DNA of 52,813 bases from Cyanobium sp. Morenito 9A2. Its GTDB lineage: Bacteria; Cyanobacteriota; Cyanobacteriia; PCC-6307; Cyanobiaceae. The stretch spans positions 1 to 52,813 of the forward strand of contig NZ_JAGQBJ010000016.1 of NCBI RefSeq assembly GCF_024345575.1, given 5' to 3'. Below are positions 20,820 to 31,065 of this stretch, one piece after another. Positions within the stretch are counted from its first letter, which is position 1. Every line of letters begins with the position of its first letter. The notes under the pieces were generated by a model. It was not told the DNA's origin. It was given only the letters and a program-made list of their open reading frames with translations, and searched no databases. A program made the position numbers and the translations under genes.

Positions 20820-20941
20820 GGACTGGGCGATGGCCTTCGCCGGGCGGCCGTGGGCGGCTCCATCCAGCGCTGGGCCCGGGTCTAAGGTGCCCATGGCCTG
20901 CGGGCCGGCCCTTCGTTGTGCCCTTGGCGACGCGGTGGTCT

Positions 20942-21026
20942 GGAGAGGTGGCTGAGTGGTCGAAAGCGAACGACTCGAAATCGTTTGAAGGGAAACCTTC
21001 CGTGGGTTCGAATCCCACCCTCTCCG
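20942..21026 (+). tRNA. tRNA-Ser (anticodon CGA)
   Basis: An 85-base type II tRNA. The acceptor stem GGAGAGG (20942-20948) pairs with CCTCTCC (21019-21025), discriminator G21026. The anticodon stem AACGA/TCGTT encloses a loop with CGA at 20976-20978, reading UCG serine codons. A long variable arm and the T loop GTTCGAATC are present. CCA is not encoded; a T-run follows. The 3' end is the likely attachment site of the integrase gene 186 bp downstream. Confidence 0.96.
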
Positions 21027-21211
21027 TTTTTCTTGGTTCCGAGAAGGGTTTGGTTCGCCCAGACTCTTTGCTGTGCCTAGGTTTTTGACGTTTTGATGGT
21101 CCGAGGTAGGCCGGTTATTTCCCCTCGGTGCGCAATTTTAAGTTGGGGTATTTGGTGGGGTATAGCCAGAGCCATGTTGGGGTAGAATCGGGGTGTTGGG
21201 GTATTGCTGAA

Positions 21212-22444
21212 ATGCCTTTCACTGACAGCGATCTTAGGTCCCTTCAGCCACAGGCCAAGCGATTTCGTGCTTCAGCGGGCGAGGCCCTCTTTGTAGAGGT
21301 CTATCCATCAGGAGGGCGGTATTTCGTCTGGCGGCACCGCTTTCCACCTGGGAAGGAGGGGAAATTGCGTGATTACCAGATCGGGCCCTATGGCAAGGGT
21401 CCGGGGCAGTGGACGCTGAGGGAGGCCCGTCAGGAGCGTGACCGCCTTGATGTTCTCCGCCGGCAGGGCGAGGACCCCAGGGAACTGAAGGCAGAGCGGC
21501 GTCAGAGCATCCAGCGCACGGGGGTGGTGACCTTTCAAAAGGCAGCAGAGGAGTGGATCGCGGGGAATACCAGAAAGCTCGCCGCAACCACTCTTAAGGA
21601 CTACAAAAACAAGTTGGAGAACCAGATTCTGCCTGTGTTTGGTAGGCGCTCAATCAAGGCGATCACCCGCGGTGAGTGCCTGGCGTTCAAGCGCACCATC
21701 GAAGCTCGGGGCGCACTGAACCAGTCAGACAAAGTGTTTATGGTCCTGCGCCTGGTCTTCTCCTATGCCATTGACCAAGAATGGGTCTCAGATCCCAACC
21801 CAGCAAGGAATTCCAGGCACTCCCATTCGGGGCACATCACCAGGAATCATCCCTCGCTCGACTGGAATGACGTCCCAGGATTTTTGGCAGACCTTGCGAG
21901 GAACAAGGGGAACGGAGACCCGATTGCTATTGCCTCGGTCAAAGTTCTATTGCTGACGTTTATGAGGGTGGGTGCTGTGGTGCCTGGTGAATGGGCTGAA
22001 ATTGATTGGCAACAAAGGATTTGGACCATTCCTGCCAAGCGGATGAAAGGAAGAAACGCCACTCGGCAGGAGCATTTAATCCCGATGTCACAACCATTGG
22101 TCGATGCTCTGGAAAGGCTTCGAGAACAAACAGGAGACTCGCCATATATTTTTCAGAGCTCCCGGGGCAAGGGCACTGAGCACATCGCTTTGGAAACGCC
22201 AAATCACCTCATTAAGCGCATGGGATATCAGGGAAAGCTCGTTGCTCATGGCGTGCGCAGCTTGGCACTGACCAATGGTCAGGACATCCTTAAGACCCCG
22301 TTTCATGTGATTGATCTGCAGATGGGACATAAGCCGCCAGGTAAGGTGCGTCAGGCTTATGACAAGGCGCAATACCTTGAGGAGCGGACGGTATTTATGA
22401 AGCGCTGGGCAGACCTTTTGCTGGAAAAGGGCCTGGTGGTATGA
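21212..22444 (+). CDS. Tyrosine recombinase/integrase of a genomic island
   Basis: A 410-residue integrase of the phage/island (P4-like) type. An N-terminal DUF4102-like arm-binding domain (GEALFVEVYPSGGRYFVWRHR, then LREARQERDRL) is followed by a SAM-like core-binding domain (residues about 100-195). The catalytic domain has Arg252 (FMRVGAVVPGEW), H346-x2-R349 (HGVRS), a later His (MGHK) and Tyr in AYDKAQYLEER. The start ATG 21212 follows an AT-rich leader; an upstream ATG at 21128 adds 28 residues. Its place directly behind tRNA-Ser indicates site-specific insertion into the tRNA 3' end. Confidence 0.93.
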   Translation: MPFTDSDLRSLQPQAKRFRASAGEALFVEVYPSGGRYFVWRHRFPPGKEGKLRDYQIGPYGKGPGQWTLREARQERDRLDVLRRQGEDPRELKAERRQSIQRTGVVTFQKAAEEWIAGNTRKLAATTLKDYKNKLENQILPVFGRRSIKAITRGECLAFKRTIEARGALNQSDKVFMVLRLVFSYAIDQEWVSDPNPARNSRHSHSGHITRNHPSLDWNDVPGFLADLARNKGNGDPIAIASVKVLLLTFMRVGAVVPGEWAEIDWQQRIWTIPAKRMKGRNATRQEHLIPMSQPLVDALERLREQTGDSPYIFQSSRGKGTEHIALETPNHLIKRMGYQGKLVAHGVRSLALTNGQDILKTPFHVIDLQMGHKPPGKVRQAYDKAQYLEERTVFMKRWADLLLEKGLVV

Positions 22445-22455
22445 AGTTAATGACG

Positions 22456-22653
22456 TCACCGCCTAGCGGCAGAAACCTGCTGATTCATCCACTTATGGAT
22501 GTCAGATTCGAGCCAGACCACAAGGCGTGGGCCTAGAGAAATTTGCTTTGGGAAGGATCCTTCGGCGATACGGGCATAGATGGTTGATTTGGAGAGTCCT
22601 GTGACGGATTTGACCAGAGGAAGGCGGAGGAATTTGGTGGATAAGTTAGTCAT
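22456..22653 (-). CDS. AlpA-family DNA-binding regulator (excisionase-like)
   Basis: A 65-residue protein with the winged-helix/HTH pattern of AlpA and MerR-like excisionases: FLRLPLVKSVTGLSKSTIY, then IAEGSFPKQISLGPRLVVW and ESDIHKWM. Such proteins bind near attachment sites and promote excision or regulate the integrase of islands and prophages. It ends 11 bases from the convergent integrase stop, a typical int/alpA arrangement. Confidence 0.85.
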   Translation of the reverse strand: MTNLSTKFLRLPLVKSVTGLSKSTIYARIAEGSFPKQISLGPRLVVWLESDIHKWMNQQVSAARR

Positions 22654-22824
22654 GCGAAGTGGTTTTGGTCTTCAGTCAATTGTAGCTTCGGGGGTACGTT
22701 TGTAAATTCCGAGCATGGGGGACTGCGTCCAGCGTGGTTTGATTGATGTGGTCCTAGTCGCGGTAGGTAGACTTACCGGGTCCTCTTGATTGGGGAGTCA
22801 CGATGGAAGGCTGCGCTGATCCGT

Positions 22825-23247
22825 TCATGCTTGATCCGCTTGGCAATCGCCAATGGCCTCCAGCCGCCTCAAGACGGCTTGGATAAACCCACCATCAATT
22901 AGACATGCAAGCTGCCCCGCGCAAAAACGATCCTTTCTTGCAATGGCTGTAAGGAGTTTACGAATATCCTGGAGGCTTGCCGTCTGGAGCGTTTCTGGCT
23001 TGCAGATATACGCATCAACCCGGTCAGTCCAACGGACCCAATCAAAGGGAAACACAAAACCGTTGTCATAAAGGGCGTGAACAAAACGCAGAACGTCCCT
23101 GGAATTCATGAAATCTGGGAAGAACCCAGGCCTTGACTCGGAAGTACCAGAAACAAAGCCCTTCGTCTCAAAGACGGGCAGATACCGAACCAGGGCTTGA
23201 ATTTCCTCGGCTGTGGGGACGTACGTGGCATCAGAGATTTCGTTCAT
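22825..23247 (-). CDS. DUF6508-like protein
   Basis: A 140-residue protein. The C-terminal segment DIRKLLTAIARKDRFCAGQLACLIDGG followed by AVLRRLEAIG resembles the DUF6508 family, in which a short R.DRF..G.L motif near the end is characteristic; the N-terminal half (FVHALYDNGFVFPFDWVRW) fits too. Function unknown; such genes are common in islands. The ATG at 23247 is preferred; an upstream ATG at 23289 would place the start inside the divergent promoter at 23277-23306. It is divergent from the MerR gene. Confidence 0.6.
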   Translation of the reverse strand: MNEISDATYVPTAEEIQALVRYLPVFETKGFVSGTSESRPGFFPDFMNSRDVLRFVHALYDNGFVFPFDWVRWTDRVDAYICKPETLQTASLQDIRKLLTAIARKDRFCAGQLACLIDGGFIQAVLRRLEAIGDCQADQA

Positions 23248-23276
23248 AGGGGATGGGGCAGGGCTGATAGGACGAG

Positions 23277-23306
23277 TTGACACTTGCACTGTAGCTGTGC
23301 CATACT
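23277..23306 (+). promoter_or_regulatory. MerR-type promoter with operator dyad in the spacer
   Basis: A perfect -35 TTGACA (23277-23282) and a -10 CATACT (23301-23306) are separated by 18 bp. The spacer contains the dyad GCAC-N7-GTGC (23286-23300), the placement used by MerR-family activators. The next gene is a MerR-like regulator, so autoregulation is likely. The ATG at 23313 lies about where transcription would start, implying a leaderless or very short leader mRNA. Confidence 0.6.
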
Positions 23307-23312
23307 AGCTTC

Positions 23313-23972
23313 ATGGTCAAACCCGGCCCCACAGGCGAACCCAGCTCAGACGCCGCTTCCCAGGCCACCTTCGGCCTTGAGGAGCTTCTGGCGATGGCAC
23401 AGGCCCGCCTCGGGTCCGAGGTTTCAGCGCGCACTGTGCGCCTTTACCAAACGCAGGGGCTTCTGGACAAACCCGACAGGGAGAGCAGAAGCGCCGTCTA
23501 CACCACCCGCCAACTCAACCAACTACTGCTTATCCGAACTCTCGCAGCCAAAGGCCTCTCCCTTTCAGCCATTGCCCCGCTATGTGGGCAACCGGACAAG
23601 GAACTGGAGGCCCAGCTTTCTGAAATCCTTGGTGCCGAAACACCTCCATCAGTCCACCGACAACTCAGCGGTAATCCTGCTTTGGATTACCTAGAGGAAC
23701 TACGTGAGGATGATGCAAGGGCTTCGCCAGGGACCAAGGAGAATTCGGTCCTGCCATTTCTAGGCTCGTCACTTTCCTCAGGAAAGGCAAGTCCCTCCCA
23801 GGGCAGCAGAAGCGCCGCTAACCGCTGGAACCGGTTCAATCTCGCCCCTGGTGTAGAACTGCATATCAGTGATTCGGTGTCCATCCCCCCAGCGGGATCA
23901 CGGCGATTCGCATGGTTAGAAAAGCTGGCGCAGCGTTTTGCGGAACAGCTCGATGAGCGCAGTAACCAATAG
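23313..23972 (+). CDS. MerR-like transcriptional regulator
   Basis: A 219-residue protein. Residues about 20-90 form a MerR winged HTH: FGLEELLAMAQARLG, then RTVRLYQTQGLLDKPDRE and YTTRQLNQLLLIRTLAAKGLS. After a linker of low complexity (residues about 125-170, Ser/Gly-rich), a unique C-terminal segment includes GVELHISDSVSIPP and may be the sensor or partner-binding part. It is first in a three-gene cluster with a vWA protein (70-bp gap) and a metallophosphatase. The promoter in front carries a MerR-type dyad. Confidence 0.8.
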   Translation: MVKPGPTGEPSSDAASQATFGLEELLAMAQARLGSEVSARTVRLYQTQGLLDKPDRESRSAVYTTRQLNQLLLIRTLAAKGLSLSAIAPLCGQPDKELEAQLSEILGAETPPSVHRQLSGNPALDYLEELREDDARASPGTKENSVLPFLGSSLSSGKASPSQGSRSAANRWNRFNLAPGVELHISDSVSIPPAGSRRFAWLEKLAQRFAEQLDERSNQ

Positions 23973-24042
23973 TTTCCACGGCACCGGCCACCAAGTGCCT
24001 ACACACCTAGATACCACCTAACCTGTAACCCTACTTTCAAAA

Positions 24043-25305
24043 ATGGAACAACCCACGATTCGCTTCCGGGCCCTGCGTCCGGCGGTGGCAAATGATGGTG
24101 CAACAAAGCTTGACCTTCTGGTGAGCGTTAAGGCACCGGAGCTTCCACCAAACCAGGCAACGGCTCAACGCCCTGCGCTGAACCTATCCCTTGTGATTGA
24201 TCGGAGCGGTTCCATGCACGGATCGAAACTGAGCAACGCAAAACAGGCTGCGAAATTCTTGGTCGGTGAACTGGGGGCCAATGACCGGCTATCTATCGTG
24301 ACCTTCGACGAAAGGGTCAACGTTGTGGTGCCCTCGCAGCCGGTAACCGACCCTCTGGTGTTCCTATCCGCCATCAGCACCATAAAAAGCGGGGGGTACA
24401 CGGACTTGTACCAGGGTTGGGTGGAGGGGGCACACCAGGTGGCAGAGTTTGTGAACCCTGCTGGGGTGAACCGAGTTCTTTTACTCTCCGATGGTGAGGC
24501 CAACGAAGGCCTGACATCACATGTTGAAATCGGGCAAAAGGTCGCCGGGCTCAATGCTCGTGGCATCAGCACCAGTGCCTTTGGGATTGGGGAAGGATTC
24601 GATGAGGACCTGATGGGGGCCGTGGCCAGTGGCGGGGATGGAACGCTGGCCCACATTGAAAACCCTGACCAGCTTGCAGACCTTTATGCCTCTGAACTCA
24701 GGGGCCTCGTAGCTACGGCAGGGCGCCGTGTGAGTTTCAACGTTCAACCCAAGAACGGGGCTGCGGTGTCTGATGTTCTGAATGATCTACCTGTGCTCAA
24801 GGGGGGTGAATACCAACTTCCAAACCTTCGCTACGGCCAAGAACTGAACATTGGGTTGCGGTTGACCTTGCCGGCATGGGAGCCAAACCAGCACATCCTC
24901 TCCCTTCAGCTTGGCTGGGATGATCCTGGGGCAACAGAACGCCAAATGCTCGAGCAGAGCTTGATCATGCCAATCATGGCGGGTGCGGAACTCTTGGCTA
25001 TGGAACCCGATGGGGTTGTGGCTGAAAAATTTGCCCTGCTTAAGGCTAATCGGACTCGCCGGCTGGCCATCGCTGAGATGGACAAGGGGAATGACCAGGG
25101 GGCAACAGCCTATATGGCCAAGTGCGATGCGGAACTGGCTCTGCTGGATCAGACAGATGACGTGGTCATGGAACGAAAGTTGCTGGCTGAGAAAAGAAAA
25201 ATGATCGGTAAGAACCGCAACATGACTAGGAAGCGTCTATCCAAGGAATCATTACGTAGCAGTACCAACGTGTGGAATAAAGAAGATGCTGACTCAGGGC
25301 AATGA
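24043..25305 (+). CDS. von Willebrand factor A (vWA) domain protein
   Basis: A 420-residue cytoplasmic protein. The vWA domain spans about residues 45-235 with an intact metal-ion-dependent adhesion site: D53-x-S55-x-S57 (VIDRSGSMHG), T120 (GGYTDLYQG) and D150 (LLLSDGEANEG). A beta-sandwich segment (VSFNVQPKNGAAVSDV; LNIGLRLTLP) follows, then a helical C-terminus. The layout resembles stand-alone bacterial vWA proteins that scaffold signalling complexes with kinases or phosphatases. No signal peptide. The last 20 bases overlap the start of the phosphatase gene, so the two are translationally coupled. Confidence 0.9.
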   Translation: MEQPTIRFRALRPAVANDGATKLDLLVSVKAPELPPNQATAQRPALNLSLVIDRSGSMHGSKLSNAKQAAKFLVGELGANDRLSIVTFDERVNVVVPSQPVTDPLVFLSAISTIKSGGYTDLYQGWVEGAHQVAEFVNPAGVNRVLLLSDGEANEGLTSHVEIGQKVAGLNARGISTSAFGIGEGFDEDLMGAVASGGDGTLAHIENPDQLADLYASELRGLVATAGRRVSFNVQPKNGAAVSDVLNDLPVLKGGEYQLPNLRYGQELNIGLRLTLPAWEPNQHILSLQLGWDDPGATERQMLEQSLIMPIMAGAELLAMEPDGVVAEKFALLKANRTRRLAIAEMDKGNDQGATAYMAKCDAELALLDQTDDVVMERKLLAEKRKMIGKNRNMTRKRLSKESLRSSTNVWNKEDADSGQ

Positions 25306-25921
25306 TGTTGTTGCCATAGGGGATGTCCATGGCTGTGCCTCCCTGCTCAGGCAGGAGCTGGAGAAATACCGGGACAGTGGCGCTGAAATCATTCTCCTTG
25401 GGGATCTCCTCGACCGGTCCCCGGAGGACGGTGGGGCACGGGCTGTGCTCGAGCATGTATGGGCTATCCAGGCCGATCCCGGTGCCTATGGGCTGAAAGC
25501 ACTAAGCGTCATCAGGGGGAATCACGAGCAAATGGCCATTGATGCACTTGCGCAAGGGGAGACGGGGGAAGCCTCTGACCTCTGGTTCTGGAATGGTGGG
25601 GATCTCAGTGTCACGGGGCTCCTGAGGGAGAGGATGGATTGGTTGACATCCCTGCCCCATTACCTAATCAGAGGCGATTACCTCTTTGTTCATGCTGGGG
25701 TTAGGCCAGGAATTCCACTGGAGCAGCAAAGTATGGACGACATGCTCTGGATTCGCCAGCCCTTCCTTGGCCAGCCTCATGGATTACGTTATGTGGTCGT
25801 CCACGGTCACAGCATCACCGCCTCTAAGCAGGTGGAGCGAAAGCCATGGCGCATCGGCATCGATACAGGGGCCTTCCTTACCGGGAAGCTGTCCAGCTTG
25901 AGGATATCTCCAGGGGGCTGA
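25286..25921 (+). CDS. Metallophosphoesterase, PPP-type Ser/Thr phosphatase
   Basis: A 211-residue calcineurin-like phosphatase of the bacterial PrpA/ApaH-like group. Metal ligands appear in order: D13-x-H15 (IGDVHGC), D40 (LLGDLLDRS), N79-H80 (RGNHEQ), H in LFVHAGVRP and H in VVHGHS. It probably removes phosphate from serine/threonine, possibly also histidine or tyrosine. It overlaps the vWA gene by 20 bp, implying a matched pair. No Ser/Thr kinase is encoded nearby, so its substrate is unclear. Confidence 0.9.
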   Translation: MLTQGNDVVAIGDVHGCASLLRQELEKYRDSGAEIILLGDLLDRSPEDGGARAVLEHVWAIQADPGAYGLKALSVIRGNHEQMAIDALAQGETGEASDLWFWNGGDLSVTGLLRERMDWLTSLPHYLIRGDYLFVHAGVRPGIPLEQQSMDDMLWIRQPFLGQPHGLRYVVVHGHSITASKQVERKPWRIGIDTGAFLTGKLSSLRISPGG

Positions 25922-26005
25922 TCCAGGCAGACAGCGCCGGGGCACCATTGCGATTGCCATGGGGGACCGGGGAGACACGGGGCACGAAGCGGTGTCCCAT
26001 TTTTT

Positions 26006-26782
26006 TTGAACCACATATCAAACACACAACGACCGTTGAACGAAATTAAAAATCCAAAATTCGTGAAATACCTAAGGGTCTCAACCCAGGAACAGGGCAA
26101 GGGCGGCCATGGGATCGGAGCCCAAGCCCGTGATCTGGAACTGTTCCTTGGGTCTCTGGAGGCGGCAGAGATTGTTGGGACGTTTGTTGAGGTGGCTAGT
26201 GGGGCAAAGGGGGATAGGCCAGAACTTATTCAGGCCCTGGCCTTGTGCCGCAAAAGCGGGGCGAAACTCCTGGTTTCCAAGCTGGATAGGCTCAGCCGCA
26301 ATGTGGCTTTTATAGCCAATCTCCTCGAGGATCGGTCGGTGGAGTTTGTTGTGGCGGCATTGCCTCGAGCCGACCGGTTCCAACTGCACCTTTATGCCGC
26401 TCTCGCCGAGCAGGAACGGGAGTTTATCTCCCAACGCACAAAGGCTGCGTTGAAGGTTGCCAAGGAAAGGGGTGTGAAACTTGGTGGGGCAAGGCCTCAT
26501 CTGCACGCACTGAACGCACGTAAGGGTGAGGAGGCCCTACAGCAGGCCAGAAGCGTCGCTGGGATTATTATTCCCCTTCGTCGGAATGGTGCAACGCTGC
26601 AAAAGGTGGCAGATGCACTGAATAATGCAGGGATCCGAACCCAGAGGGGGTGCATGTGGAGGCCCACCCAGGTATCTAACGCAATTCAACGATTGGGGTA
26701 CAACAAATTAAATACAGAGAGGGCTTCAACCCTTCATGATCAAAAGTGCCTCACTCGAATGGCAATCAGGCAACAATCCTAG
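26006..26782 (+). CDS. Serine recombinase (resolvase family)
   Basis: A 258-residue small serine recombinase. The catalytic serine lies in [10 protein letters not shown] (S26), followed by [16 protein letters not shown] and the helix [21 protein letters not shown], then a C-terminal DNA-binding HTH ([18 protein letters not shown]). TTG 26006 is the first start; GTG 26063, right before KYLRVST, is also possible, and neither has a clear ribosome-binding site. The gene ends two bases before a 142-bp inverted-repeat element, so its last residues may have been altered by that insertion. Likely functions: resolution or inversion within the island. Confidence 0.88.
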
Positions 26783-26784
26783 GG

Positions 26785-26926
26785 GGGTGTGTTATGTCTG
26801 GGAAAGGGAGAGAGCCTAAAAAGTTCCTGGCACGAGAAGCAAGAGAAAAATTATAAAAAAATTCTCTATGCCGCTCCTCCCAAAGGAAAGACCTGCTGCT
26901 CCCTATGCAGGAGAAAACGCACCCTG
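26785..26926 (+). mobile_element. MITE-like element, copy 1
   Basis: About 142 bp related at roughly four of five positions to the reverse complement of 46879-47021. The ends are inverted repeats: the left begins GGGTGTGTTATG and the right ends GAAAACGCACCC (its complement GGGTGCGTTTTC). Shared internal blocks include GGGAAAGGGAGAGA, AAAAAGTTCCTGG and CTCCCAAAGGAA. It encodes no transposase. No target-site duplication is obvious. A short frame shared by both copies (SMP.LPKE, then APY..ENAP) may be chance or a gene remnant. Confidence 0.65.
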
Positions 26927-26966
26927 TCTGCAGACAATAGCGGCGCATTGCACTACCAGCGCTCGA

Positions 26967-27698
26967 TCAATCTGCTGACGTTTCGCTCCTCCTCAGTATT
27001 CTACGACCTCTCACCATCTTAAGGACCAGGCGCTTGTCCTCCATTAGCTGCCTTGCCCATTGCTTCACAACAGAAGTTGGGAGGTTGTTCAATCTTGCAA
27101 ATTCTGTCGCTGTAATGCCCTCGGGAAGTCCGTATTTGGCCTCTAACAAGTGGTACAGCTTTTCTACATTAACTTGAACATATGTGTGGCGAGGCCTCTC
27201 CTCCCCAAGAACGCTTCTGTAGCGCTTAACCGTTCCCCTGTCTTCATAACCATATAGGAATGATCTGTCGAAGTATGTCTCGGCTCGCCTGATCTCTTGA
27301 TCGGAGTAGGACTTTGTTCGCTTCCTACCGGTTTTGCGACAGCGTGTGAACGTAATGTAATCTTTGGCTTTCAGAAAATCTGTGATCACTTCCCAAGTGG
27401 CGCGTGTGTAGTTGCCATATCCCCCGCTAGAGTTTAGGAATGTTAGTACTTCATAATTATTTTGAAAATAAAAACAATGCACTCTATTCTTGTACTCCTT
27501 GCTCCCGAGAAATGTAAATAATACTGATTCTGCGATTTCCCGAGTCTTCTCTTCGTTATTGCTTAAAGCGTAGAACTCCCGTGAGCCCTTGCTGTAATCC
27601 TCGTCGTTGTCGTGCTTGATTGATCCAGTCATGTCTATTTTGAATTGGTTTTTTTCTTTGTGCTGCTCTAATGAATAGCGTATCCATTTGACTGCCAC
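26967..27698 (-). CDS. Hypothetical protein with C-terminal helix-turn-helix
   Basis: A 243-residue protein I do not recognise. Its composition (many Lys, Asn, Tyr; AT-rich codons) differs sharply from the GC-rich neighbours, suggesting transfer. The N-terminal two thirds are mixed alpha/beta with many aromatic residues (HCFYFQNNYEVLTFL, SFLYGYEDRGTVKRYRS). The C-terminal part, TATEFARLNNLPTSVVKQW followed by a basic tail GRRILRR, has the look of a DNA-binding HTH. Two perfect dyads lie upstream (27745-27759, 27784-27800). It might be a plasmid/island replication or regulatory protein, but no evidence decides this. Confidence 0.6.
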   Translation of the reverse strand: MAVKWIRYSLEQHKEKNQFKIDMTGSIKHDNDEDYSKGSREFYALSNNEEKTREIAESVLFTFLGSKEYKNRVHCFYFQNNYEVLTFLNSSGGYGNYTRATWEVITDFLKAKDYITFTRCRKTGRKRTKSYSDQEIRRAETYFDRSFLYGYEDRGTVKRYRSVLGEERPRHTYVQVNVEKLYHLLEAKYGLPEGITATEFARLNNLPTSVVKQWARQLMEDKRLVLKMVRGRRILRRSETSAD

Positions 27699-27744
27699 AG
27701 CCCAGGTTCATGCCAAGCAGGAATCCCGCAAGGTGGTTGTAAGG

Positions 27745-27800
27745 GTGTTGACCCAACACTGTTGAGGCCCAGCTTATTGCCTCCTTTCAAGTTGAAAGGA
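27745..27800. promoter_or_regulatory. Two perfect dyads upstream of the HTH protein gene
   Basis: GTGTTG-ACC-CAACAC (27745-27759) and the 17-bp palindrome CCTTTCAA-G-TTGAAAGG (27784-27800) lie 47 and 86 bp upstream of the minus-strand gene at 27698. Both are odd-length symmetric sites typical of operators. The rest of the 400-bp gap 27699-28105 holds no gene; a TACAAT at 28088-28093 is a candidate -10 for the cyAbrB gene. Confidence 0.45.
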
Positions 27801-28105
27801 TAGGCGGATATGTCTATACCAGTTTCGCGGATCGCAGGGCTTTAAGGCCGTGCGTTCGCTTTTGAGCAGACTACAACTATACCATGTATTTCGTGCATTT
27901 GGGTGGTAGATAGCGCCAGAGAAGCGAAGGCCGTTTTGCCTGTTGCGGATTCCCTCCTTTTCTCTCGAGGGTGATGCTGAAGGGGTGGCCTATGTGGAGA
28001 TGGGATGATTCAATATGTTGTGCAAGCCTGCCACCACAATCCAGGATCAGTGCTGGTGCTCCCGGGACCATAAGGTACATTGTGGGTTACAATCACGAAT
28101 GACCC

Positions 28106-28474
28106 ATGGCATTAACCGGCGCAGACCTGCTGGCAAAGGTGAAGGAACTAGGGGATGTGAGTAAGTCCGAGCTGGTGCGGGAAGCTGGCTACGTGTCCAC
28201 TAAGAAAGATGGGTCGGAGCGCCTGAACTTCACAGCCTTCTACGAAGCCCTGCTGGAAGCTAAAGGGGTATCCCTGGGCTCCAATGGCAGCACCAGTGTT
28301 GGCAAAGGTGGCCGGAAGCTCAGCTATGTCGCCACTGTTCAGGGGAACGGCAACCTCCTGATCGGCAAGGCGTATTCAGCCCTGCTGGACCTCAAGCCCG
28401 GCGATGAGTTCGAGATCAAGCTGGGTCGCAAGCAGATCAAGCTCATCCCCCTCGGTGCTCCAGAAGAGGAGTGA
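28106..28474 (+). CDS. cyAbrB family transcriptional regulator, second copy
   Basis: A 122-residue paralogue of the protein encoded at 3909-4283, nearly identical in both the N-terminal helical part (LLAKVKELGDVSKSELVREA) and the C-terminal AbrB-type domain (LSYVATVQGNGNLLIGKAY, LKPGDEFEIKLGRKQIKL). Differences cluster at the ends. Start and stop agree with the paralogue. A possible -10 TACAAT at 28088-28093 lies only 12 bases before the ATG, which would give a very short leader. The high protein similarity, with many synonymous DNA changes, suggests strong selection on both copies. Confidence 0.92.
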   Translation: MALTGADLLAKVKELGDVSKSELVREAGYVSTKKDGSERLNFTAFYEALLEAKGVSLGSNGSTSVGKGGRKLSYVATVQGNGNLLIGKAYSALLDLKPGDEFEIKLGRKQIKLIPLGAPEEE

Positions 28475-28603
28475 ACTGAAGATTCCGGCATAGGCGCCAG
28501 CCTTTCCTTTCCAGCCCGCTCCTGAGAACCCACCTCTGTTCCTCCCGGGGAGTTCTTGTTGTTCGCCATCAAGGGGTAGCTAGTGCCTATCGGGACTAGT
28601 TTC

Positions 28604-28879
28604 TCATCGCGGAAGAGGGCAGAGCCAGGGCACAGGGGCGCGGCAGGTGCGCCAGTCGCCATTGGTGCTGCTCACCTCCACACCGATCAGGCTGGAGGGA
28701 TGGTCGGATTCGCTGAGGTGACCGATCCACTCGATCGCATCGGCAATGGCGTCATCAAGGGAGCTGTATTGGCCGTCGAGCTGGCCGTGCGGCTCGCAGC
28801 TCCCATCGATGAGCCGGTAGCTGCGCTCGCTTGACCTGGCTGCCTTGCTCAGCAGAGCAGCGGTTACGTATGACGGCAT
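28604..28879 (-). CDS. Small conserved hypothetical protein
   Basis: A 91-residue protein beginning MPSYVTAALLSKAARSSE, with a central SLDDAIADAIEWIGHL helix and an ending with two cysteines (DWRTCRAPVPWLCPL). It resembles small proteins I recall from picocyanobacteria, without known function. The start is ATG 28879, supported by an excellent ribosome-binding site AAGGAGA seven bases upstream. No signal peptide. Single-gene unit. Confidence 0.7.
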   Translation of the reverse strand: MPSYVTAALLSKAARSSERSYRLIDGSCEPHGQLDGQYSSLDDAIADAIEWIGHLSESDHPSSLIGVEVSSTNGDWRTCRAPVPWLCPLPR

Positions 28880-29019
28880 GTCAGTTCTCCTTGGGTCAAC
28901 ACCTTGGTTAGAGCAAGGGGCGAGCGGCTGTATCCAGCGGAACACTTTGATCTGTCGTTACAGCGACGGCAACCAAGGTTCATGCCTTCCAAGGCGGGCG
29001 CAGGGGTAGTAATTGCTCT

Positions 29020-29355
29020 TCAGTCGTGGCGGAGGCTACTGGGAAAGAAGTTCGGGTTGCTGCTGAGTTGCTGTGGATGTGGGGATTGCTCCGCGTTGGC
29101 CTCCGCATTCGCCTCCATCGCCTCCCTGCAGCGGTGCAGCATCACCTGCCTACGGGCATCGGGCTTTTCGATGCGGATGCCGCCGCCAAAGAAGCGCTGC
29201 AGCTGCTGGCCGCGCAGCTTGGCGATTGGTGCGGGCACCAGGCGGCAGGGGCGCACCGCCTGGCCGGTGGCATCGAGGAACCAGATGCGGGCCTGGGCGC
29301 CGGGGTGATCGGCCGGCTCGAGGAACTCGACGCCGATGCAGGCGATGGCGGACAT
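29020..29355 (-). CDS. Hypothetical protein
   Basis: A 111-residue frame beginning MSAIACIGVEFLEPADHPG, with plausible mixed composition (ARIWFLDATGQAVRPCRLV, then LRGQQLQRFFGGGIRIEKP). The open frame extends upstream, but that part is low-complexity and antisense to the next gene. Start at ATG 29355 chosen because sensible protein sequence begins there. No family recognised. Divergent from the gene at 29472. Confidence 0.55.
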   Translation of the reverse strand: MSAIACIGVEFLEPADHPGAQARIWFLDATGQAVRPCRLVPAPIAKLRGQQLQRFFGGGIRIEKPDARRQVMLHRCREAMEANAEANAEQSPHPQQLSSNPNFFPSSLRHD

Positions 29356-29471
29356 GGATGGCGAGCGACGGACACCCGCGCCCCGCCCCGCCAGGGGCAT
29401 CCTGGCCGCGGTGCCGAGCCGCCATCCAGCCGCCACGGGCGCAGTACGCCCGGCCGGCGCTGGCCAACAGG

Positions 29472-29816
29472 ATGGAACTCCTGCTAGTACGGGTGTACTT
29501 CCTGCTTGGCGCTCTCGTGTCTGCTCCCCCTGCTCGCTCTCGCGGTTCCCATCGGGACAGCAACCCCAGCGGGGAGGAAGCAACCATCGAGGCCTGGCCC
29601 TATCTCGATGGGGCTGTGCTGCGCCCCAGCCGCAGCCGCAAGGTCTGCATGACCTGCCACTTCTTTCGCCACCACGCCGGGGTGAACTGCATCCCCCTGC
29701 TCACCTGCCAGCTGCACCAGGGCCTGCTGGCCCAGGGAGAGCACCTCACCCGCCGCTGTCAGGGTTGGACCGACGACATGACGCGCCAGCGGGGCTGGTG
29801 CCCGGAGGTGGCCTGA
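29472..29816 (+). CDS. Small cysteine/histidine-rich protein
   Basis: A 114-residue frame whose second half is distinctive: CMTCHFFRHHAGVNCIPLL, then TCQLHQGLLAQGEHL and RRCQGWT, ending RGWCPE. The spaced Cys and His residues suggest a small zinc-binding protein; similar proteins occur in marine Synechococcus in my recollection. ATG 29472 is the longest sensible start, but the first 45 residues are poor and translation may begin further in (for example at ATG 29649). Seven bases separate it from the DUF1651 gene. Confidence 0.6.
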   Translation: MELLLVRVYFLLGALVSAPPARSRGSHRDSNPSGEEATIEAWPYLDGAVLRPSRSRKVCMTCHFFRHHAGVNCIPLLTCQLHQGLLAQGEHLTRRCQGWTDDMTRQRGWCPEVA

Positions 29817-29822
29817 TCAGGC

Positions 29823-30074
29823 ATGGCCATCAGCAAGGGACCACCCCTGTCGCCCAAAGACGGGTGGCTCAGCGATGGCCGCCAGGTGCTGCGCTTCCGC
29901 CCGACGCGCTGGGAGCGCACCTACCAGCGGCTGGAGATCACCAAGGGAGAATTACTCCCCGGCGAACCGGTGCCGCTGCTCAAGAACCGCCGGGAGATCA
30001 GCCGGGATGAGGCCCTCAAGCTGTGGGCCGCCAAGCGCCAGGAGGGCTGGAGCCCCTGCGAGCCCCAGTGGTGA
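29823..30074 (+). CDS. DUF1651 family protein
   Basis: An 83-residue protein with the DUF1651 layout: GWLSDGRQVLRFRPTRWER near the N-terminus, then PLLKNRREISRDEALKLW and a GW...PQW end. The family is restricted to picocyanobacteria as far as I know and has no assigned role. It lies seven bases after the Cys-rich gene, so the pair probably shares a transcript ended by the hairpin at 30213-30240. Confidence 0.82.
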   Translation: MAISKGPPLSPKDGWLSDGRQVLRFRPTRWERTYQRLEITKGELLPGEPVPLLKNRREISRDEALKLWAAKRQEGWSPCEPQW

Positions 30075-30212
30075 TGGGGTGTGGCCCTGGAGTGAGGTTT
30101 GCCGTACTGACACCACGGCCCAACGGATCTATCCATGAAGCAGAGGCCTCGACCAGGGCGGTTCAAACCAGTTCCCTGCAACCGACCTAGCCCTTGGCTT
30201 CTGCGCAGTAGT

Positions 30213-30240
30213 AGGGCGCCCGACACGGGGCGCCCTTTCT
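30213..30240 (+). terminator. Rho-independent terminator
   Basis: A 9-bp stem AGGGCGCCC (30213-30221) / GGGCGCCCT (30228-30236) with a short loop, followed by TTTCT. It lies 140 bp after the DUF1651 stop. Confidence 0.65.
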
Positions 30241-30290
30241 ATTGGGCGCATTCAGCCTTTCCACAGCAGCGCCTCGACCCTGGTCACCTC

Positions 30291-30557
30291 TTAGTCGAGC
30301 GGCTGGCCCCTATCGGTCGGGGTGGTGATCGTTGCGGTGGTGTAATCGTGACGGCAGCCAACGCCATAGTCCGTCCGATGGCAGGCCTCAATTGCGGCGA
30401 ACACAGGGCACCACTCGCCCTCGATAGCAGTGCCGTTGGGGTGCAGCTGGATCTTGAGGCCGGCTTCCGTGAGCACCTTCTCGCAGGCGGCGATGTAGGG
30501 CGCCAGGTGCACGCCCACACCGATCGGGACGACGCACAGATCCACGATCACCTTCAC
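30291..30557 (-). CDS. Thiamine-binding family protein (MTH1187/YqgV type)
   Basis: An 88-residue single-domain protein with a ferredoxin-like fold. VIVDLCVVPIGVGVHLAPYI, then VLTEAGLKIQLHPNGTAIEGEW and FAAIEACH match the MTH1187/YkoF-like family, thought to bind thiamine or a related pyrimidine. The start is GTG 30557 with AGGAG seven bases upstream; longer frames run into the divergent gene. No thiamine biosynthesis gene is adjacent. Confidence 0.82.
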   Translation of the reverse strand: MKVIVDLCVVPIGVGVHLAPYIAACEKVLTEAGLKIQLHPNGTAIEGEWCPVFAAIEACHRTDYGVGCRHDYTTATITTPTDRGQPLD

Positions 30558-30615
30558 GGTCAGCTCCTCTGGCTTGGATTGCTCCCATCGTGGGAAACGG
30601 TGCACAGGAGCTGCC

Positions 30616-31065
30616 GTGTCTGCTTTCCCTCTGCTAGTGATCGTGCATGCCCTGGCCGCCACGGTGTGGACCGGCGGGCATCTGGTGTTGGATCTGGGAG
30701 TGCTGCCCAGCGCGCTGCGGGAGGGAAGCGCGGCACCGATCCGCAGCTTCGAAGAGACGTTTGAGCCGCTGGGCCTCACCGCCCTGGCGATTCAGGTGCT
30801 GACGGGGCTGTGGATGGGCTGGATCTATCTGCCGGGGTTCCAGGGGCTCTTCAGCCCAGCCAACCCGATCGGGATGCTGGTGGGCGTCAAGCTGTCGCTG
30901 CTGGCCGGCACTGCCGCCCTGGCCCTGCACGCCCGGTTGCGGCTCATCCCCAACCTCACCGACGAGACCCTGGGCGGCCTGGCATGGCACATCCGTGGCA
31001 TCACCGCCTTGGCCATCGCCTTCGTGGTGGTGGGGGCCTTTATCCGTCTGGGGGGCCTGAGCTGA
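30616..31065 (+). CDS. CopD-like membrane protein
   Basis: A 149-residue integral membrane protein with four helices. PLLVIVHALAATVWTGGHL contains the HxxxxxxWxGGH pattern of CopD-type and related haem- or metal-handling membrane proteins; a second His occurs in GLAWHIRGITAL. Substrate unknown. Start GTG 30616 with AGGAG seven bases upstream. Its 3' end overlaps the convergent LysR gene by 26 bp. Divergent from the thiamine-binding gene with only 58 bp between starts. Confidence 0.7.
   Translation: MSAFPLLVIVHALAATVWTGGHLVLDLGVLPSALREGSAAPIRSFEETFEPLGLTALAIQVLTGLWMGWIYLPGFQGLFSPANPIGMLVGVKLSLLAGTAALALHARLRLIPNLTDETLGGLAWHIRGITALAIAFVVVGAFIRLGGLS

Follow-up and report, generated by a model that had tools for sequence, protein, structure and literature searches.

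A MerR-vWA gene pair with a predicted ArnB-like vWA fold, joined by a PPP phosphatase in an island of Cyanobium sp. Morenito 9A2

In the archaellum regulatory network of Sulfolobus, ArnB, a protein with a von Willebrand factor A (vWA) domain, acts with its partner ArnA as a repressor; phosphorylation tightens the complex, and PP2A, a phosphatase of the PPP class, dissociates it, as set out in PMC7472852, PMC12852372 and PMC10470591, with further treatment of ArnA, ArnB and PP2A in the vWA2 section of PMC6509490. By fold, this network is the closest described parallel to a cassette at positions 23,277 to 25,921 of a stretch of 52,813 nucleotides (the window, meaning that whole stretch) from Cyanobium sp. 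Morenito 9A2 (assembly GCF_024345575.1, contig NZ_JAGQBJ010000016.1). The cassette encodes a MerR-family regulator, a vWA protein and a PPP phosphatase, which form a compact unit behind a promoter with a dyad:

23277..23312, plus strand: promoter and operator of the MerR gene, with TTGACA, the dyad ACACTTGCA-C-TGTAGCTGT and CATACT, followed by 6 nt to the ATG
23313..23972, plus strand: MerR-family regulator with a C-terminal hairpin and helix common to vWA-coupled MerR proteins
24043..25305, plus strand: vWA protein with a modelled ArnB-like three-part fold (split beta-sandwich, vWA domain, helix bundle)
25286..25921, plus strand: PPP phosphatase of the NinI/PrpA-like type, overlapping the vWA gene by 20 bp

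The initial annotation, made from the window alone, had recognized this three-gene unit, and its reading frames stand as described, the vWA stop codon ending at 25305 and the phosphatase ATG lying at 25286, which yields the 20-bp overlap. It had also set the unit against TerY-type stress systems. The TerY-P triad consists of a vWA protein, PP2C and a kinase, and the cassette shares with it the association of a vWA protein with a phosphatase. Membership is rejected, as the phosphatase is of the Metallophos/PPP type rather than PP2C, no kinase is linked and a MerR protein is added; no match named TerY appeared in the PADLOC and NCBIfam scans, whose TerY models are unchecked. The separation from TerY sets and the failure of searches to match a described system are thus upheld, while the nearest parallel by fold is archaeal ArnB, a partner of PP2A, and not TerY.

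The vWA protein matches the Pfam VWA model at 56.7 bits (cut-off 23.8), and the complete metal site that had been noted in it is intact, with D53-x-S55-x-S57, T120 and D150 of the metal-ion-dependent adhesion site (MIDAS) invariant in a 24-row alignment. Its AlphaFold model, in which the vWA domain is inserted into a split beta-sandwich and followed by a C-terminal helix bundle, as in ArnB, superimposes on ArnB (8s05_A) with Z 29.8 and a root-mean-square deviation of 4.3 over 375 aligned residues (model residues 2-412) at 15% identity, and a Foldseek search of the model matches Sulfolobus ArnB over the whole chain at E 2.2e-23. The next structural matches are the Catenulispora structure 4fx5 (Z 27.9) and the ArnB paralogue 5a8j (Z 24.7). 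At E 0.01 the Pfam scan did not return ArnB_C (IPR040929), the presence of that model in the Pfam copy used being unconfirmed. Beyond the shared three-part fold, archaeal ArnB likewise works with a partner in gene control that involves a PPP-type phosphatase (PMC7472852). The partner gene here encodes a MerR protein and not the FHA/zinc-finger protein ArnA, the phosphatase is encoded beside the vWA gene, no kinase is linked, and a common function is something we infer by analogy.

The phosphatase was correctly assigned to the PPP type: it matches Metallophos at 46.1 bits (cut-off 21.5), carries all the signatures of the family (GDVHG, GDLLDR, GNHE, VHAG and VHGH) and matches phrog_246, the phage NinI class, at 118 bits. 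Structurally it resembles the serine/threonine phosphatase 1g5b (E 5.3e-10), with 2qjc, a putative diadenosine tetraphosphatase entry, scoring slightly better. It shares all metal-site motifs with the NinI, PrpA and lambda-type PPP phosphatases and differs from them in being encoded with a MerR-vWA pair. As also noted at the outset, no kinase was found among the nine open reading frames (ORFs) of the stretch that were scanned with Pfam.

The MerR protein has an N-terminal winged helix, matching MerR_1 (PF13411) at 44.3 bits (cut-off 21.6), and the best fold matches of its model are MerR-family structures (best E 1.2e-3). After the winged helix, the model has a poorly predicted linker with one weak helix (about residues 110-168), followed at 172-218 by a hairpin and helix predicted with confidence. 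No Pfam match covers this C-terminal tail; its residues are conserved across 41 MerR proteins (R in 37, G in 39, E in 38, P in 40), 40 of which come from Cyanobacteria or Deinococcota and one from Paracoccaceae, where the tail is largely missing. The protein resembles the metal regulators MerR, CueR and ZntR in its winged helix and in a dyad placed between -35 and -10, and differs from them in its long linker, its hairpin-helix tail, its spacer of 17-18 bp and its score far below the equivalog cut-offs (best NCBIfam equivalog 28.6 against 150.85). Metal sensing is unlikely, the single cysteine of the sequence leaving no metal-binding cysteine pair.

The MerR-type promoter dyad reported earlier is real and conserved, although imperfect in the window, where it lies between the TTGACA -35 and the CATACT -10 elements (best-scoring spacer 18 bp) with arms matching at 6/9 positions. 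Measurements covered 31 of the 32 MerR promoters of the Cyanobium/Synechococcus family (L068 excluded) and 22 wider, hand-picked ones (excluding L105, L108, L114, L115 and L240). In the family promoters the dyad, mostly ACACyTGCA-S-TGCAAGTGT, fills the spacer, and its arms match at 8/9 positions in 19, at 7 in 7 and at 6 in 4 (the window included), with one promoter, L039, out of register by one base. The -35 element stands about 35-36 nt before the MerR ATG in 31/31, reading TTGACR in 30 and TCGACG in L039; the best-scoring -10 element ends 6 nt before the ATG in 29/30 promoters measured, so that a leaderless MerR transcript is predicted from the sequence as the probable product. The wider set has TTGACA 33-36 nt before the ATG in 18/22, the four without it being from Deinococcus. 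The spacer measures 17 bp in 23/30 and 18 bp in 7/30 family promoters, the window being among the 7. MerR-activator promoters have a stretched spacer between -35 and -10, and 17-18 bp is the ordinary length, which would suit repression better than the stretched design of a MerR activator.

The operator pattern was also sought, at no more than two mismatches, in 12 genomes chosen for holding a vWA gene, where it occurs at 14 distinct sites, 13 of them directly upstream of a MerR gene of this family. As the pattern was built from these same promoters, what informs here is how rarely it occurs outside them. At up to three mismatches the reversed control pattern produced 3 matches, and the operator pattern is absent from G149, the one genome of the 12 whose vWA locus is without MerR. 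The remaining site is a third, perfect operator copy in the window genome (L004:14490-14512, minus strand, equal to G000:C4:88489-88511), followed by a 40-amino-acid ORF that is not MerR; it may be the relic of a promoter, or may mark a target comprising small uncharacterised genes downstream. In G162, a kinase match has an operator-like site roughly 60 bases away; this site, which carries 3 mismatches, was dismissed by eye for its poor dyad.

The cassette recurs. A second MerR-vWA-PPP triple lies on another contig of the window genome (L004), its vWA, MerR and PPP proteins being 56%, 51% and 58% identical to those of the first. Within the family, a vWA match (E <= 1e-30) was found in 39/400 genomes, and among the 41 of 42 loci scored (L069 was dropped, its vWA gene being broken) MerR lies just upstream of vWA in 32 and PPP just downstream in 18. 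The nine loci without MerR comprise a distant vWA group (L070-L074, 33-36% identity), L046 at a contig end, L054 with 717 bp of upstream sequence, and L036 and L067, which lack MerR; four of the 23 without PPP end within 400 bases of vWA. Distance matrices of 17 of the 18 triples (L059 is cut by a contig end) correlate at r=0.945 for vWA and PPP and at r=0.829 for MerR and vWA, values that 0/2000 permutations reach, and removal of the window copy leaves r = 0.925 and 0.808, respectively. Each of the three genes sets the window copy at a similar distance from the others (45-53, 55-60 and 54-59% identity), which is what a unit moving together would show. The refuting outcome named at the outset, that such triples do not recur or that the genes lie dispersed in relatives, fails, because the triples recur and their three genes co-vary.

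Several other genes accompany these loci. An M28 peptidase gene, whole or in pieces, lies within about 2.7 kb of the vWA start in 21/41 family loci, and directly follows the MerR-less vWA gene in L072-L074; in L035, L041, L049 and L050 an HD_4-type gene stands divergent from MerR where other loci have M28. Divergent from the second MerR gene of the window genome are M28 and a DUF6508-ADP-ribosylglycohydrolase fusion (L004:10548-12738), and its PPP gene is followed by a large RNase_H-AAA helicase, which partly resembles PADLOC MkoA models, and a protein unmatched in Pfam (L004:3107-7681).

Beyond the family, the vWA gene is sparse, with matches (E <= 1e-40) in 40/386 genomes of the phylum. Twenty non-family loci were examined, and among the 18 scoring at least 284 bits (L104-L121; L122 and L123, at 262 bits or less, are uncounted) MerR precedes vWA in 15, PPP was seen in none and vWA is fused to Macro in 3. 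The MerR-vWA pair occurs in ten numbered cyanobacterial families (f1, f4, f6, f8, f12-f15, f22 and f23, f1 being Cyanobium/Synechococcus). In an alignment-based scan of named genomes, in which the best 80 of 564 confirmed loci were considered, the matches listed include MerR-vWA pairs in further cyanobacteria, at three Deinococcota loci and, weakly, at one Paracoccaceae locus, while no MerR was seen beside the planctomycete and Eremiobacterota vWA relatives listed; a single-sequence scan of the same genome contigs gave 13 pattern matches and confirmed no relative. Plasmids carry the pair as well: 28 records match vWA, and in 12/12 examined (nine Deinococcus, one Meiothermus, Synechocystis pSYSA and pAQ7) MerR precedes vWA. 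What follows the pair varies. On pSYSA (L230:7360-9767) MerR is followed by a vWA-Macro fusion (genes SGL_RS00905 and SGL_RS00910) about 340 bp upstream of csx2 in the CRISPR region, on pAQ7 the pair is followed by a nucleotidyltransferase/DUF86 pair, a tyrosine phosphatase follows in Deinococcus deserti and a microbial-type PARG in D. ficus, and other plasmids have unrelated or uncharacterised genes in this place. A phage search returned 2 partial vWA matches only. Conversely, a search with MerR across the 386 phylum genomes located 26 full-length places in 24 genomes, 22 of which adjoin vWA. The older core is the MerR-vWA pair, with PPP detected in the Cyanobium family only; the triple first proposed as the unit does recur, and the wider unit is the pair.

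Gene order, joint inheritance, promoter conservation and predicted folds are consistent with a mobile, autoregulated signalling switch in which a MerR-coupled, ArnB-like co-regulator is reset by a phosphatase, a reading favoured here tentatively and at somewhat under an even chance. MerR would bind the dyad in its own promoter and repress it, repression being proposed because the spacing of 17-18 bp is ordinary and not of the stretched activator type. The vWA protein would bind the C-terminal hairpin of MerR and act as a co-regulator whose input is phosphorylation or a ligand, either a peptide or a metal, and the phosphatase would take phosphate off vWA or MerR, resetting the complex as PP2A does for ArnA and ArnB. 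The kinase would come from another part of the genome: the window genome has two Pkinase matches, both on other contigs, and PF00069 matches occur in 11/12 genomes, with none in the remaining one.

A number of observations weigh against this switch. The PF00069 matches may belong to other kinases, as they are mostly partial and in long frames, and no FHA partner was detected, with no FHA match in MerR, vWA, PPP or six other scanned ORFs. Similarity of fold does not demonstrate function. The presence of PPP is not convincingly mirrored at any Ser/Thr position of vWA: two of about 420 columns reach p<0.01 uncorrected, a chance-level yield, of which position 87 (18/18 versus 9/14, p 0.0099) runs in the right direction and position 414 (p 0.0045) in the wrong one. 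MerR-coupled proteins show no special conservation of the vWA loop matching the ArnA-binding site. Coupled proteins (n=38) are better conserved than uncoupled ones (n=22) at positions 127-137 and 158-173, a lead only, because the two sets also differ by clade. The distance correlation partly reflects species history, and the pair is sparse at the scale of both family and phylum. PPP is dispensable for the pair: 20 family loci lack it although their sequence continues past vWA, and it was detected nowhere outside the Cyanobium family. Four of the 26 MerR places lack an adjoining vWA gene, all in family f19. These loci (L273-L276) keep a MerR with the C-terminal tail, which in L273, L275 and L276 stands beside aroA-like and DUF4388-like genes, named by eye, L274 being different.

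A broader proposition, put forward with reserve and as rather less than probable, is that MerR-vWA is an undescribed mobile signalling module, equivalent in bacteria to archaeal ArnAB, with a MerR repressor standing in for the FHA partner. The mark read and erased, phosphate or ADP-ribose, would then depend on an exchangeable hydrolase (PPP, tyrosine phosphatase, Macro or PARG). The component families are known, and their combination and spread appear to be new: no paper on the MerR-vWA pair was found in a literature search judged by titles and abstract openings, mostly without subscription journals. If the proposition is true, the ArnB/Sec23-24-like vWA regulatory fold, a phospho-switch in archaea, extends to a bacterial transcription regulator, a group of MerR regulators is defined whose signal may come from a partner protein instead of a metal or drug, and Macro and PARG domains become linked to transcriptional control. 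The Synechocystis pSYSA copy offers a tractable case.

The variable neighbours also keep alive an alternative that is unlikely though substantial, namely a conflict system that reverses ADP-ribosylation, since Macro, PARG, tyrosine phosphatase and PPP occupy the same place. The vWA protein would then be a Mg-dependent chaperone for ADP-ribosylated proteins, a third component (Macro, PARG or ADP-ribosylglycohydrolase) would strip ADP-ribose, a phosphatase (PPP, PTP or HD) would process the product and MerR would sense it. The Macro fusions of pSYSA and other cyanobacteria, the PARG of D. ficus, the tyrosine phosphatase of D. deserti and the DUF6508-ADP-ribosylglycohydrolase, HD and helicase genes near some cassettes all fit, and section 3.8 of PMC9503650 proposes systems of this kind, centred on ADP-ribosylglycohydrolase (ARG), with vWA and calcineurin-like phosphatases, the same association as here, with Macro, HD and helicase genes recurring in related loci. 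The published systems are described there with Nudix or WYL regulators rather than MerR, which the text leaves unnamed, its two string matches being the surname Merrill; as that source gives Nudix or WYL for over 42% of systems, a MerR regulator alone does not exclude membership. As for the enzymes, Macro, PARG or ARG stand at a minority of the MerR-vWA loci in the seed searches, the ADP-ribosylglycohydrolase fusion of this genome lies near the second cassette, and no ADP-ribose enzyme was found among the window proteins scanned with Pfam, where DUF6508 stands alone.

It is improbable that the pair instead regulates a stress or DNA-damage response, controlling distant stress genes with PPP merely tuning it. 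Saccharolobus ArnA and ArnB repress DNA-damage genes, as reported in PMC10470591, and copies on plasmids of Deinococcus and Meiothermus suit such a role; in the 12 genomes searched, the operator, being almost confined to the MerR promoter apart from the one orphan site, leaves no evident regulon. A radiation-induced VWA protein of Deinococcus deserti, treated in PMC5552922, is a different gene, Deide_18690, and CoxE-like.

The surroundings of the cassette agree with the integrative island recognized earlier, marked by a tRNA gene, two recombinases, an AlpA-type gene and lower GC:

20941..21027, plus strand: tRNA-Ser (CGA), found by ARAGORN, at the left edge of the island
21128..22444, plus strand: tyrosine integrase (Pfam PF00589 and Arm-DNA-bind_3; PHROG 1 integrase)
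22456..22653, minus strand: AlpA-type excisionase or regulator (PF05930)
22825..23247, minus strand: DUF6508 protein, divergent from MerR (PF20118, 102.7 bits; ATG 23247 preferred over GTG 23289)
26006..26782, plus strand: serine recombinase, an island gene (PF00239)
26967..27698, minus strand: 243-amino-acid island protein without a match in the Pfam, PADLOC, PHROG and NCBIfam scans

GC content runs at about 0.50-0.57 in this stretch and at 0.63-0.72 in the flanks closest to it, with 44-52 kb of the window also GC-poor (0.54-0.59). A same-genus genome has the same tRNA-Ser with different genes behind it; in the piece examined there, the tested island proteins were not found, and nor were the tested right-flank proteins of the window. 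No direct repeat of at least 16 bases, as a candidate attachment (att) site, was found in 20900-31000, and a search for shorter exact matches against the rest of the window gave a longest match of 11 bases. The island stretch is probably mobile.

This mobility, the phage NinI class of the phosphatase and the adjacency of relatives to CRISPR genes (pSYSA) and to the nucleotidyltransferase/DUF86 pair (pAQ7) would accord with an anti-phage abortive cassette or a toxin-antitoxin-like unit on the island, which is nonetheless quite improbable, given that PADLOC matched none of six island proteins, no toxin is evident and the M28 gene kept near 21/41 family relatives, many of them chromosomal, looks like vertical inheritance. 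Of the earlier designation as a signalling or defence cassette, the defence part is therefore weakly supported. It is most improbable that the cassette is cargo, decayed or selfish, on which no selection for function acts in this island: the imperfect window dyad and the long branch of the window vWA protein would suit it, but motifs, frames and overlap are intact and the three genes have diverged to a similar degree.

Lastly, cyAbrB-like genes lie near both cassettes of the window genome, at 28106-28474 in the window and at the end of L004:15604-16350 beside the second; this proximity may be due to chance, because the genome contains related sequences at many sites.

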